64,000 nt of DNA. Origin: Chroococcidiopsis sp. CCMEE 29 (lineage in GTDB: Bacteria; Cyanobacteriota; Cyanobacteriia; Cyanobacteriales; Chroococcidiopsidaceae). This document shows, piece after piece, positions 27,532-33,553 of this stretch. The stretch spans positions 4,295,001 to 4,359,000 of the forward strand of contig NZ_CP083761.1 in NCBI RefSeq assembly GCF_023558375.1, written 5' to 3'. Position 1 is the stretch's first letter. Each line of letters begins with the position of its first letter. The translations under genes and the position numbers were made by a program. The notes beneath the pieces were generated by a model, which saw nothing but the letters and a program-made list of their open reading frames with translations, did no database searches and was not told where the DNA came from.

Positions 27532-30500
27532 ATGGCTTTTTCTTCTATTGTTCGTGCCTTAGGGCGATCGCCGCTCACAGCAGAACTGCTATCTAAACTG
27601 CAACGTCAGCAAGTATGCCGTCTCAGCGGCATCCCCCGCCTTCCCAAAGGGTTAGTGGCATCTGCCCTGGCACAAGCTGAGCAACGCCCTCTATTGGTAG
27701 TATGTGCCACGCTCGAGGAAGCTGGACGTTGGGCAGCTCAACTAGAGGCAATGGGTTGGCAGACAGTGCATTTTTACCCTACCTCTGAGGCATCGCCCTA
27801 CGAACCATTTGACCCCGAAACTGAGATGACTTGGGGGCAGATGCAAGTTTTGGCGGATTTGATCCAAGTAAACACGGCAGCAGGGGAAGCAGGGGGAGAA
27901 CCCCCCCCTCGCCCCTCGTCATTGGCAATTGTGGCAACAGAGCGATCACTACAACCGCATCTGCCACCCGTGGAAGCCTTCAAGCCTTACTGCCTGACCC
28001 TCCACAGAGGGATGGAATTAGACCTAGACACCTTTAGTGAGCGATTGGCCCAGCTGGGTTACGAGCGTGTGCCGCTGGTAGAAATGGAAGGTCAGTGGAG
28101 TCGGCGCGGCGATATTGTTGATGTGTTTCCAGTGTCGTCTGAATTACCGGTGCGACTGGAATGGTTTGGTGACGAGTTAGAGCAGCTCCGAGAGTTTGAT
28201 CCAACCACCCAGCGAAGCGCAACCACCAGTGCTAATCAAACTCGCAGTGCTTCTGGTGGTACAACACTCGACAAGATCGATCGCTTGGTTCTTACCCCCA
28301 CTAATTTTGGTCCAATCGTCAGGGCATCTGTGACTGATCGACAGGCACTCATGGTTAAAGCCTTCCTCTCACCAGAAGAACAAGAGCAGTTTGATGCGGG
28401 TCAACCTCCAGAGGGGAGTCGTCGCTTCCTGGGTTTAGCCTTTGAGCAACCAGCTTCGCTCCTGAACTATTTACCAGAGAATACACTGATTGCCATTGAT
28501 GAACTGGAACAGTGCCAAGCTCATAGCGATCGCTGGCTGGAACACGCTGAAGAGCAGTGGCAGCTTTTGGAGCAGGGGGAGCAGGGGGAGCAGGGGGAGA
28601 GTTTCACCTCATTGCCTAAAATCCATCAGTCTTTTGAGGACTCGTTGGCGACTGCAACTGAGTTTAAGAAATTATACTTATCAGAACTAGTAACCGAATC
28701 AGACCCCTCGCCCCTCGCCCTACGCCCCTCGCCCCTAAATCTGGCTAGTCGTCCCGTACCAGCAACACCTCATCAGTTTGGCAAACTGGCGGAAACACTG
28801 CGGCAAGAGCGCGATCGCGGTCTATCTATTTGGCTGATCTCCGCCCAGCCTAGTCGGTCTGTCTCTTTATTGCAAGAACACGACTGCCCTGCCCAGTTCA
28901 TCCCTAACCCCCGCGACTACCAAGCCATTGACAGACTGCAAATCCAGCACACTCCGGTAGCAGTTAAATATTCTGGGCTTGCCGAACTGGAAGGTTTTAT
29001 CCTGCCTACGTTCCGACTGGTAGTTGTAACTGACCGCGAATTCTTTGGTCAGCACTCCCTGGCAACTCCCAGCTATATCCGCAAGCGCCGCCGCGCTGCC
29101 TCTAAACAAGTTGACCCCAACAAGCTGCGTCAAGGTGATTATGTGGTTCACAGAAACCACGGGATCGGCAAATTTATCAAGCTGGAAAGCCTGACAGTCA
29201 ACAGAGAAACCCGCGAGTATTTGGTGGTGCAATATGCTGATGGCTTACTGCGAGTAGCAGCTGACCAGGTGGGATCTTTGTCTCGGTTTCGCAGTACCAG
29301 CGACGGTGCCCCAGAACTGCACAAAATGTCTGGTAGGGCTTGGGCTAATACTAAAAATAAAGCCCGCAAAGCGATCAAAAAATTGGCAGTTGATTTGCTA
29401 AAACTTTATGCCCAGCGATCGCAGCACAAAGGCTTCGCTTACCCACTAGATTCGCCCTGGCAGGAAGAACTTGAAGACTCTTTCCCATATCAGCCAACAA
29501 CTGACCAGCTTAAAGCAGTGCAAGATGTAAAGCGGGATTTAGAGAGCGATCGCCCTATGGATCGTCTTGTCTGCGGTGATGTCGGTTTCGGCAAAACCGA
29601 AGTAGCCATTCGAGCCATATTTAAAGCTGTCACCGCTGGTAAACAAGTTGCCATGCTTGCCCCCACTACCATCCTCACCCAGCAGCACTACCATACGCTC
29701 AAAGAACGTTTTGCCCCCTACCCGATTCAGGTAGGGTTGCTGAATCGCTTCCGCACTGCTGAGGAACGGCGCGATATTCAACGGCGACTGGCAACAGGTG
29801 AACTAGATGTCGTTGTAGGTACACACCAGCTATTAGGTAAGGGGGTTACGTTCCGAGATTTGGGACTGCTGGTGGTAGATGAAGAACAGCGATTTGGCGT
29901 TAACCAAAAAGAGAAAATTAAAGCGCTTAGAACCCAAGTAGATGTCCTAACTCTTAGCGCGACTCCCATTCCTCGCACTCTGTATATGTCGCTATCGGGA
30001 ATTCGAGAGATGAGTTTAATTACCACACCGCCCCCGTCACGCCGTCCGATTAAAACTCATCTAGCGCCTTATGGTCCTGAAGCTGTACGCAGTGCGATTC
30101 GCCAAGAATTAGATCGGGGAGGGCAGGTGTTTTACGTAGTACCGCGCGTGGAGGGAATTGAAGAAACTGCTGCCAACTTGCGGGAAATGGTGCCAGGCGG
30201 GAGAATTGCGATCGCTCACGGTCAGATGGATGAAGGCGAGTTAGAATCCACCATGCTCACTTTCAGCAATGGGGAAGCCGATATCCTTGTCTGCACAACC
30301 ATTATTGAGTCTGGCTTGGATATTCCGCGAGTCAATACCATCTTGATTGAAGATTCCCACCGGTTTGGTCTATCTCAGCTGTACCAGTTGCGTGGACGAG
30401 TCGGTCGGGCTGGAATTCAGGCTCATGCATGGCTGTTTTACCCCAAGCAGCGGATATTATCGGATGCAGCACGGCAGCGTTTACGGGCAATTCAAGAATT

Positions 30501-31140
30501 CACCCAACTGGGGTCTGGCTATCAGCTGGCAATGCGAGATCTAGAAATTCGCGGTGTGGGCAACCTGCTGGGAGTAGAACAGTCCGGTCAGATGGAAGCA
30601 ATTGGCTTCGACCTTTACATGGAAATGCTGGAAGAATCGCTGCGGGAAATTCGCGGTCAAGAAATTCCCCAAGTTGACGATACACAAATTGACCTGCATC
30701 TCACCGCCTTCATTCCTGCCGACTATATCCCGGATTTAGATCAAAAAATGAGTGCTTATCGGGCTGTTGCCGCTGCTAAATCTAAGGAGGAGTTAACTCA
30801 AATTGCTGCAGAGTGGAGCGATCGCTATGGTTCCATTCCCGCTGCTGCGATGCAGTTGTTGCGAGTGATGGAACTGAAACAGGTGGCGAAGTCCTTAGGA
30901 TTTAGCCGGATTAAACCAGAGGGCAAACAGCACGTTATTCTAGAAACTCCAATGGAAGAACCAGCTTGGAATCTGTTGGTTGCAAATTTAGCAGAACACT
31001 TGCGATCGCGCTTTGTCTACTCCCCTGGTAAGGTAACAGTCCGAGGTTTAGGAGTGCTCAAAGCAGAGCAGCAGCTACAAAGTCTGATTGATTCTCTGAG
31101 AAAAATGCAAGGCGCAATTCCAGAAGTAGCGATTGTTTGA
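27532..31140 (+). CDS. mfd: Transcription-repair coupling factor Mfd
   Basis: This SF2 translocase displaces stalled RNA polymerase and recruits UvrA. The 1202-residue protein has an N-terminal UvrB-like domain ([37 protein letters not shown]), the RNA-polymerase-interacting domain (~530-590, [17 protein letters not shown]), and helicase motifs [15 protein letters not shown] and [15 protein letters not shown]. The RecG-like TRG region is [34 protein letters not shown], followed by a C-terminal TRCF domain. Three low-complexity inserts are in frame: residues ~114-130 ([15 protein letters not shown]), ~347-358 ([10 protein letters not shown]) and ~392-402 ([13 protein letters not shown]). Helicase motifs are undisturbed, so function is probably retained. 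uvrA lies at 56452 in the same window. Confidence 0.96.
27881..27919 (+). repeat. In-frame repeat insertion 1 in mfd
   Basis: The stretch contains GCAGGGGAAGCAGGGGGAG followed by two CCCCTCG heptamers, translating to [15 protein letters not shown]. It lies in the N-terminal domain, where homologues are ordinary sequence. The G-rich part matches the smc insert. Confidence 0.6.
28569..28604 (+). repeat. In-frame repeat insertion 2 in mfd
   Basis: Three tandem copies of the 9-mer GGAGCAGGG (with small variation) encode [11 protein letters not shown] period of nine keeps frame. It lies between the UvrB-like and RNA-polymerase-binding domains, an apparently tolerant linker. Confidence 0.65.
28705..28738 (+). 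repeat. In-frame heptamer repeat insertion 3 in mfd
   Basis: About four heptamers of the type TCGCCCC/TCGCCCT/ACGCCCC/TCGCCCC encode [10 protein letters not shown]. The 7-base period is typical of cyanobacterial STRRs but must be read with total length in frame to keep the gene open. Confidence 0.6.
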
Positions 31141-31202: not shown

Positions 31203-32873
31203 ATGGCTGATTTTTGGGAAGAATCGCTGACTGAACAGGAAGGCTGTTTGCTACAGCCTTTTATTACTAATTTGGATCGATCTGTCTTTGGTCTGCGAAA
31301 TTTACCTGAAGTAGTGAAAGGTGCCTTATTCTCGCGCTATAGTCGCAGCGATAAAAGTTTGCGTCGTATACTTCTTGATGAGTTCATCAAAGCACCGGAA
31401 GCTAGCTTTGCGCGGATTGTCAGTGGAGTAGCTGACAATAATGCCGACCAATTAGTGGCGGTTCAACAAGCAGAAGCGTTTTACGATCGCGTCTTGATAG
31501 GTTATGGCGATGACTCAGTGGCAGAACTAGGAGGCGCACACATTGCCTGTGAAGGAATTAGTAATATTGCCGCAAAAGCTCTTGAGGATAGTCGGTTAGG
31601 AATTTCTCCTTTAGAGAAGTCAACCAGATATGTCCCGTTTAATCAAAAAATCAATGGACGCTACCGCTACTATCGGGAATCGTCAATTATGGCATCCAGT
31701 CATGGGTCGCGTTATGAGGCAACATTAGACCATTTATTCGATACTTACACTGCATTAATCGATCCTTTGTTAAGTTGGGTGCAGGCTCATACCCCTCAAG
31801 ATCCGACAATCTCTGAACGAGCCTATAAGAACGCAACAAGAGCTAAAACTTTAGATTTGTTGCGCGGTTTACTACCAATGGCAACGCTGACTAATGTTGG
31901 CTTGTTTGGCAATGGACGCGCCTTTGAATATTTACTAGTAAAGCTTGCTGCCTCACCTCATCAAGAAGTTCGTGCGCTTGGATTAGCTATGCAACAAGAG
32001 CTCGATCAAATGATCCCCTCATTTGTCAAGCGGGCAAAAACTGAACGGGGTGCTCAATATGCGGGTTATTTATCAACAAATTGCGAACGCACAGCACTGC
32101 TTGCACAAAAACTTTTAGGGCAGATGAAGCCAGCATCAACACAGCACTTGCTTCAAGTTAGCAAATCCGCTCAACCTGGTGACTCCTCGATTCAATTAAT
32201 TGAGTACGACCCAGATGCAGAAGTAAAGGTTGTTGCAGCCATTCTTTATCCTCACACCCATTTGACATTCGAGCAAATCAAAGAATACGTCACTGGTTTA
32301 TCAACTACAGAGCGAGTAGAGATTATCAGCACCTATGTCGGTGAACGCGGATCGCGATTTCATCGCCCAGGACGCGCTTTCGAGGAAACATATTATACAT
32401 TTGATTTGCTAGCCGATCTAGGTGCCTATCGCGATTTACATCGACATCGCGTTCTTAGCCAAGAACGCCAACACTACTCTGTTCGTCACGGTTATGTAGT
32501 TCCAATTCAACTAGAAGAAGCAAACCTTGCAGAACCCTACCGCAAAGCTTTAGAGTGTGCCGCCGAAACAACTGAGTTGATTGCTAAAGACTTGCCCAAT
32601 GCAGCACAATACGTTATACCCTTCGCTTATCGGCTGCGCTGGCGAATTAAGTTGAATCTGCGAGAAGTTTATCATCTGGTTGAATTACGAAGTTCGCGAC
32701 AAGGGCATCCTTCCTATCGCATAATTGCCCAAGAAATTTATCGGCAAATTAGTGCTGTTCACCCAGCATTGGTAGCTAACATGTATTTTGTAGACCTCAA
32801 TGACTATGCTTTAGAGCGATTAGCGGCAGAGCAACGAATTGATACAAAATTGAAGCAACAAAATCAAAAATAA
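31203..32873 (+). CDS. Double-length ThyX-like (FAD-dependent thymidylate synthase family) protein
   Basis: This protein has 556 residues from the ATG at 31203 (MADFWEES); the frame opens upstream inside the end of mfd. Both halves look like ThyX folds. The N-half has GLFSRYSRSDKS-like sequence, then LEKSTRYVPF (Ser140, with the EKSTRY pattern where ThyX has NEQSxRY) and LLPMATLTNVGLFGNGRAFEYLLVKLAASPHQEVRALG. The C-half has FDLLADLGAYRDLHRHRVLSQERQHYSVRHGYVVP (RHR at 414-416) and LREVYHLVELRSSRQGHPSYR. Neither half has a complete RHRx7S motif. Family members are annotated as thymidylate synthases, but dUMP methylation is not assured. It follows mfd by 62 bp. Confidence 0.82.
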   Translation: MADFWEESLTEQEGCLLQPFITNLDRSVFGLRNLPEVVKGALFSRYSRSDKSLRRILLDEFIKAPEASFARIVSGVADNNADQLVAVQQAEAFYDRVLIGYGDDSVAELGGAHIACEGISNIAAKALEDSRLGISPLEKSTRYVPFNQKINGRYRYYRESSIMASSHGSRYEATLDHLFDTYTALIDPLLSWVQAHTPQDPTISERAYKNATRAKTLDLLRGLLPMATLTNVGLFGNGRAFEYLLVKLAASPHQEVRALGLAMQQELDQMIPSFVKRAKTERGAQYAGYLSTNCERTALLAQKLLGQMKPASTQHLLQVSKSAQPGDSSIQLIEYDPDAEVKVVAAILYPHTHLTFEQIKEYVTGLSTTERVEIISTYVGERGSRFHRPGRAFEETYYTFDLLADLGAYRDLHRHRVLSQERQHYSVRHGYVVPIQLEEANLAEPYRKALECAAETTELIAKDLPNAAQYVIPFAYRLRWRIKLNLREVYHLVELRSSRQGHPSYRIIAQEIYRQISAVHPALVANMYFVDLNDYALERLAAEQRIDTKLKQQNQK

Positions 32874-32971: not shown

Positions 32972-33553
32972 ATGGCTTTGACTGCTTCGACCATGTTACC
33001 TTTGGGTACCAAGGCACCAAATTTCCAACTGCCGGATGTTGTGTCTGGGAAGACGATTTCGCTATCCACCTTTGCTGGCAAGCAGGCACTGTTGGTGATA
33101 TTCCTATGTAAGCATTGCCCGTTTGTGCAGCATATAAAAGATGAATTGGCACGGCTGGGTAAAGATTATGTCGATCGTAATGTTGGGATTGTTGGCATCA
33201 GTGCCAATGACGTGAGTAACTACCCGGATGATGCACCAGACAAGTTGAAGGCAATGGCTGAAGAACTGGGGTTGCCATTTCCTGTTTGCTATGACGAGAG
33301 CCAAGAGATAGCGAAGGCTTACACAGCTGCTTGCACACCGGACTTCTTTTTGTTCGATGCCGATCAGCAGCTAGTATATCGCGGACAGCTAGATGATAGC
33401 CGACCGAGCAACGGTAAGCCTGTTACTGGTGCGGATTTACGCGCGGCTCTTGATGCGGTGCTAGCGGTTAAACCTGTTAACCCAGAACAAAAGCCTAGTG
33501 TGGGATGCAACATTAAGTGGAAACCTGGTAACGAACCTAGCTATTACGGGTAA
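32972..33553 (+). CDS. Thioredoxin-fold redoxin (AhpC/TSA-like)
   Basis: This 193-residue protein has a peroxiredoxin-like beginning (LPLGTKAPNFQLPDVVSGKTISLSTFAGKQALLVIFLCKHCPFVQHIKDELARLGKDY). The CKHC pair replaces the CGPC of thioredoxin. FPVCYDESQEIAKAYTAACTPDFFLFDADQQLVYRGQLDDSRPSNGKPV continues the fold with the cis-Pro region (TPDFFLF). It is a cytoplasmic single-domain protein of a widespread cyanobacterial group. A peroxidase or disulfide-reductase role is inferred from the motif. It has no membrane or signal sequence. It is 98 bp after the ThyX-like gene. Confidence 0.9.
   Translation: MALTASTMLPLGTKAPNFQLPDVVSGKTISLSTFAGKQALLVIFLCKHCPFVQHIKDELARLGKDYVDRNVGIVGISANDVSNYPDDAPDKLKAMAEELGLPFPVCYDESQEIAKAYTAACTPDFFLFDADQQLVYRGQLDDSRPSNGKPVTGADLRAALDAVLAVKPVNPEQKPSVGCNIKWKPGNEPSYYG

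Follow-up and report, generated by a model that had tools for sequence, protein, structure and literature searches.

The window analyzed here is a 64,000-nucleotide stretch of Chroococcidiopsis sp. CCMEE 29 (contig NZ_CP083761.1, positions 4,295,001 to 4,359,000 of the forward strand). It contains a gene that encodes two domains of the flavin-dependent thymidylate synthase ThyX in a single chain, with a strict split of the active-site residues between them. The open frame of 556 amino acids runs on the forward strand from an ATG at 31203 to a stop at 32873, and the start M-x-D-F-W-E-E-S, which is common to the relatives of this tandem ThyX, fits this ATG. The gene is flanked by mfd (27532-31140) and by a peroxiredoxin-like gene (32972-33553).

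The two ThyX domains

The Pfam family PF02511 (Thy1) matches the protein in two stretches (E 1.6e-42; 145.9 bits against a gathering score of 24.8), and a profile search of the whole genome placed Thy1 matches on the two halves of this frame only, confirming the tandem ThyX-like architecture proposed in the original prediction. Comparison of each half with canonical single-domain ThyX by hhalign gave a profile-profile probability of 97.8 for both. Structure prediction of the monomer, which had been suggested as a check, yielded both domains with a similar order of secondary-structure elements when AlphaFold was run on the single chain with 74 diverse rows—the predicted local distance difference test score (pLDDT) being 90.9 and the predicted template modeling score (pTM) 0.91—and a model made with 27 close rows (alignment A1; pLDDT 54.2, pTM 0.38) was set aside.

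Fold comparison with VIA-align matched the C-half to Thermotoga maritima ThyX in complex with deoxyuridine monophosphate (dUMP) and flavin adenine dinucleotide (FAD) (1o26_C; Z 17.3, 193 aligned, root-mean-square deviation [rmsd] 2.4). Full-length matches to predicted phage models spanned 565 and 541 columns with poor rmsd values of 13.0 and 9.9, respectively, and the domain orientation is thus unmatched in those models. Since every good row of the VIA-align comparison falls on residues 316-556, the fold of the N-half rests on the profile comparison together with these full-length matches.

Division of the active-site residues

In the homotetrameric canonical enzyme, each active site draws on three subunits, termed here A, B, and C. 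In Mycobacterium tuberculosis ThyX, the FAD ligands are the RHR motif of subunit A together with Ser71 and Arg190 from subunit B. Those of dUMP are Arg95 and Arg199 from A plus Arg87, Ser105, and Arg107 from C, and Tyr108 of C forms the lid of the site (PMC6514825). In agreement with these subunit roles, PBCV-1 ThyX contributes Gln75 and Arg182 from one monomer and Ser88 and Gln89 from another (PMC3498832). Activation of dUMP has been ascribed to R174, with S88 and Y91 assisting (PMC8316439), and His53 is located on a third monomer (PMC11940539). By alignment, the M. tuberculosis residues RHR, Ser71, Arg190, Arg199, Ser105, Arg107, and Tyr108 would be equivalent to T. maritima positions 78-80, 55, 165, 174, 88, 90, and 91, respectively. 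Positions 55-180 were counted on the T. maritima chain with RHR set at 78-80, following the published numbering.

Residues at these positions were counted in 126 distinct tandem proteins, comprising 66 from sources other than viral contigs and 60 from viral contigs. The relatives come from genomes (26 loci), Chloroflexota, a divergent family of the same phylum, plasmids (10 records), phages (14 records), and viral contigs (65 loci), and thus span bacteria, plasmids, and phages, down to approximately 21% identity. The gene's own copy (L059), repeat fetches (L064-L066), a contig-end fragment (L060), and four Herpetosiphon repeats (L067-L069 and L071) were dropped from the set of 66; of 66 viral entries, six were removed as apparent duplicates, and one of 24 Microcystis-phage-like contigs was used.

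Table 1. Equivalents of T. maritima ThyX residues in the two halves, and number of the 126 tandem proteins retaining the corresponding ThyX residue in each half (at the T55 position, Ser in the 125 N-halves).
T. maritima position	Subunit role	N-half residue	C-half residue	N-halves	C-halves
T55	B	S105	R391	125	6
R78	A	D129	R414	2	126
H79	A	S130	H415	2	126
R80	A	R131	R416	63	112
S88	C	S140	R422	126	2
R90	C	R142	H424	126	27
Y91	C	Y143	Y425	121	35
R147		R221	Q469	126	0
N163		N237	N485
R165	B	R239	R487	111	67
R174	A	K247	R496	12	125

All of the FAD and dUMP contact residues that were mapped are present somewhere in the tandem protein (Table 1), but RHR occurs in 0/126 N-half windows and S.R[YF] in 0/126 C-half windows—that is, never both in one domain. 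Retention of EKSTRY (residues 138-143, containing Ser140) in an N-half devoid of RHR, and of RHR at residues 414-416 in the C-half, had been noted in the original prediction and is confirmed here, with S-x-R-Y likewise missing from the C-half. The split is wider than had been seen then, because T55 and R147 (N-half) and R174 (C-half) are partitioned as well. In contrast, the claim that His424 occupies the position of the catalytic Ser did not survive the profile alignment, in which H424 falls on Arg90 and R422 on Ser88. Furthermore, residue 424 is variable across the 66 proteins (R in 25, H in 14, L in 10, P in 8, and others in 9), which rules out His424 as a conserved replacement catalytic residue.

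The invariant columns of alignments A2 and A3, found unsupervised, are largely the partitioned active-site residues. In A3 (74 rows, excluding the intein-like L143 and L171, the incomplete L134, and 10 close relatives out of 26), eight columns are invariant, namely E117, E138, S140, R142, R221, R414, H415, and R496, and all but E117 correspond to ThyX positions 78, 79, 86, 88, 90, 147, and 174, a match far beyond chance. The coordinates of these features are given in Table 2.

Table 2. Features of the tandem ThyX gene in the window.
Feature	Coordinates	Strand	Basis
Tandem (duplicated) ThyX gene, 556 amino acids, stop included	31203..32873	+	Frame, Pfam, genome search, relatives' common start
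N-half ThyX domain, ~residues 30-290, predicted donor of subunit B and C roles	31290..32072	+	hhalign against canonical ThyX; AlphaFold secondary structure
S47-R48; Ser in 123/126 and Arg in 125/126 tandem proteins; possible counterpart of folate-loop Ser30	31341..31346	+	Inferred by eye
D103 (H53 position) to S105 (T55 position; FAD phosphate, subunit B role; Ser 125/126)	31509..31517	+	Alignment; H53 match by neighboring alignment
D129-S130-R131, at the canonical RHR position; RHR lost in N-half	31587..31595	+	Alignment
E138-K-S140-T-R142-Y143 = ThyX E86/S88/R90/Y91 (subunit C role)	31614..31631	+	S140, R142 126/126; Y143 121/126
R221 = ThyX R147, 126/126	31863..31865	+	Alignment
N237-G-R239 = ThyX N163/R165 (FAD, subunit B role); R239 111/126	31911..31919	+	Alignment
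C-half ThyX domain, residues 325-535, predicted donor of subunit A role	32175..32807	+	hhalign probability 97.8; VIA-align Z 17.3
R414-H415-R416 = RHR motif (subunit A role); R414, H415 126/126; R416 112/126	32442..32450	+	Alignment
R422-Q-H424, at S88 and R90 positions, both lost in C-half; 424 variable	32466..32474	+	Alignment
R496 = ThyX R174 (dUMP activation, subunit A role), 125/126	32688..32690	+	Alignment

Two side observations concern the H53/T55 region of the N-half. The residue at the likely His53 position, D103 (31509-31511), is Asp in 60/126 proteins (cyanobacterial/Chloroflexota group) and His in 65/126, including most phage members; by their titles in the fold list, structures of a T. 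maritima ThyX H53D mutant exist (4kar and 4kas). In addition, two viral contigs (L143 and L171) encode tandem ThyX frames of 903 and 910 amino acids, with an intein-like in-frame insertion of roughly at least 300 amino acids at this site (GYGHS|C...GN|SVAEH).

In a tree of 34 of the 126 proteins, split into halves, and 7 of 31 canonical rows, all N-halves form one clade (support 0.942) and all C-halves another (0.998), suggesting that the tandem protein probably arose by a single old fusion and later spread across phyla and phages.

Thymidylate supply and neighboring genes

Profile searches of the Chroococcidiopsis sp. CCMEE 29 genome, which is 99.99% complete, returned no match to PF00303 (ThyA), no Thy1 (PF02511) match beyond the tandem gene, and no match to PF00265 (thymidine kinase). 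The tandem gene appears to be the cell's only thymidylate-making enzyme. The original prediction had named, as its refutation, a canonical thyX or thyA elsewhere together with a lack of conserved FAD-binding residues; neither gene was found, and the FAD-binding residues are present (Table 1). Deletion of thyX has been described as achievable only where Tdk is present (PMC3498832). Among 26 relatives' genomes, all of which carry the tandem gene, 24 yielded no other thymidylate synthase.

Across 292 genomes of the phylum, Thy1 was detected in 250 and ThyA in 41, with both in 3 (one of these ThyA matches being below the cut-off and containing stops), ThyA only in 38, and neither in 4. A tandem profile matched 5/292 of these genomes, none of them ThyA-bearing. 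Other cyanobacterial genomes with two Thy1 matches of ~1e-20, including G019, G054, and G058, were considered as further carriers of tandem proteins but were missed by this profile; since it matches only five genomes, these two-match rows are something else, perhaps a single ThyX interrupted by an intein or intron. In Chloroflexota, 98/301 genomes carry tandem ThyX, a tally obtained from 106 matches by setting apart 7 single-domain frames and one further fragment (G537).

Some ThyA-like genes of cyanobacteria were also observed. Those of ThyX-less genomes encode proteins of ~500 amino acids with a weak PF00303 match, and a member of the same family as the present strain has a large ThyA form with a C-terminal PterinBD-DUF4346 domain, near dcd (G005; L197:1477-2997). 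In a contig of Gloeocapsa sp., the tandem thyX and the peroxiredoxin gene are separated by a ThyA-like gene with a shortened C-terminus (L004:3555-4757, reverse strand), an arrangement that looks like a replacement that started but failed.

With respect to neighboring nucleotide-metabolism genes, a dUTPase lies directly upstream of the tandem gene on the same strand in 9/26 loci, with PF00692 confirmed in 4/9 (the four checked); no dUTPase was found upstream in 40 further loci, for which short flanks were scanned. The tandem copy follows a dCMP deaminase gene in the Tunturi_5 phage, and dcd lies two small genes upstream of it on a Euzebya plasmid. Another tandem ThyX, 41% identical, is carried by a Parabacteroides distasonis plasmid record (NZ_OY725790), a 278-kb element that is assigned to Bacteroidota.

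A predicted enzyme with composite sites

These observations point to a working flavin-dependent thymidylate synthase that would act as a homodimer, with two composite sites in place of the usual four, a reading to which we assign a probability of about 0.82. A homotetrameric ancestor would have turned into a two-domain chain, two copies of which would pair to mimic the 222 tetramer. The C-half would contribute RHR and Arg496 (R174), holding FAD and activating dUMP; one N-half would provide Ser140, Arg142, and Tyr143 (S88, R90, and Y91), and the other N-half would provide Ser105 and Arg239 (T55 and R165), which also hold FAD. Each C-half site would use both N-halves, with their roles swapped between the two sites. 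With the A role coming only from C-halves and the B and C roles only from N-halves, 222 geometry predicts that each dimer has two complete sites and that the two site positions needing RHR from an N-half are dead. A layout with two C-halves at the A and B positions is disfavored because C-halves lack the T55 residue (retained in 6/126). As in canonical ThyX, FAD would pass the methylene group of methylenetetrahydrofolate (CH2-THF) to dUMP, and the cell would depend on the tandem enzyme for deoxythymidine monophosphate (dTMP). The idea, raised in the original prediction, that two half-motifs combine at the interface of a pseudodimer is supported, in that the residues retained by each half are those that different subunits bring to one ThyX site.

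Several points weigh against this composite-site enzyme. The protein scores 55.3 bits with TIGR02170, the NCBIfam ThyX equivalog, and misses its cut-off of 87.9, as do 5 other tandem members, and no dUTPase lies beside the tandem gene in the window. R165 is retained in 67/126 C-halves and in both halves of most bacterial members, and the R174 position of N-halves is basic in 73/126 (K 61, R 12); the partition is thus less clean for role B and R174 than for S88, R90, and RHR. Moreover, 59/60 viral-contig proteins were fetched by an RHR-like pattern that demanded RH, and the RH of their C-halves is thus not independent evidence; the split is unchanged among the 66 proteins gathered otherwise. 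Additional candidate thymidylate synthases are also found: one of the 26 relatives' genomes has a canonical Thy1 frame of 269 amino acids, another has a ThyA-like frame adjoining the tandem gene (shorter at the C-terminus by ~110 residues than a 75%-identical relative, the pterin-binding domain being part of the missing stretch), and 5/98 tandem-bearing Chloroflexota genomes (G394, G410, G483, G561, and G596) also have a PF00303 match.

The missed equivalog cut-off could signify that the protein has left thymidylate synthesis, as the original prediction allowed, to become another flavin-linked nucleotide methylase or a flavin oxidase. Some ThyX relatives in the fold list do have other roles: the PolB UMP/dUMP methylase (4p5b) is among them, and the entry for Corynebacterium glutamicum ThyX (3ge9) is titled 'not required for thymidylate biosynthesis'. 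We regard such a departure as unlikely, given that the catalytic residues are retained, if divided between the halves, that no other thymidylate synthase was found in the strain's genome or in 24/26 relatives' genomes, that a search of the former for thymidine kinase also found none, and that dUTPase, the maker of dUMP, is encoded just upstream in 9/26 loci.

It is very improbable that each half forms a complete site of its own under relaxed motif requirements, giving four sites as in the normal ThyX tetramer. Such an arrangement would accommodate the occurrence of N163/R165 in both halves of many bacterial members and of Arg131, at the R80 position, in 63/126 N-halves, but R78 and H79 are absent from 124/126 N-halves, S88 from 124/126 C-halves, and R147 from 126/126 C-halves; RHR and Ser88 are among the FAD- and dUMP-binding residues in the structures described in PMC6514825. 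Least credible of all is an inactive remnant, or a protein active only with a separate canonical ThyX partner. The genome with an extra Thy1 frame (G294) would suit the latter, yet no second Thy1 was found in the present genome or in 25/26 relatives' genomes, and invariance of the active-site residues from cyanobacteria to large phages does not fit a loss of function. Returning to the composite-site enzyme, a further and rather doubtful extension of it is that one fusion fixed the division of labor—N-halves as pure dUMP and lid donors, C-halves as pure FAD and RHR donors—and that the two abolished sites may now be regulatory pockets, for example for deoxythymidine triphosphate (dTTP) or folate, such that half of the enzyme would serve for sensing rather than catalysis.

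The duplication itself is already known. In 2009, Valas and Bourne (PMC3224940) pointed out a 'ThyX with a domain duplication' in Chloroflexi, which they described as uncharacterized; the present protein has this duplication and very probably belongs to the same family. That paper's Discussion has nothing on split residues, phages, or cyanobacteria, and its statement on duplicated ThyX is the only one that was found in the open-licence PMC literature. A search of these papers found no split-site ThyX or characterized tandem member, an absence that is no proof given the scope of the collection. What is new is the role-partitioned active site. Compared with canonical ThyX (T. maritima TM0449 and M. 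tuberculosis ThyX; PF02511, TIGR02170), the tandem protein shares the fold and, overall, the same FAD-binding, dUMP-binding, and catalytic residues, but it has two domains per chain with the whole motif in neither, is predicted to have two sites per assembly rather than four, and misses the equivalog cut-off. The thymidylate synthase of Microcystis phage Ma-LMM01/MaMV (phrog_36506; A0A7D4) is a full-length two-domain relative with the same split at ~25% identity, encoded by a phage gene and annotated plainly as thymidylate synthase. Thermus thermophilus Thy1 (6j61, in the fold list) also has a chain longer than that of the usual ThyX, but according to its title this is due to an extra C-terminal domain.

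If the composite-site reading is correct, many Chloroflexota and some cyanobacteria would rely on the tandem protein as their essential enzyme for making dTMP, and it would also be common among large phages. It would constitute a natural experiment on a three-subunit site, in which evolution has labeled the residues that must come from different subunits. The subunit roles of ThyX would become addressable by single mutations in one chain, since one S140A or R414A change would strip a role enzyme-wide, and the assembly is predicted to have half as many sites.
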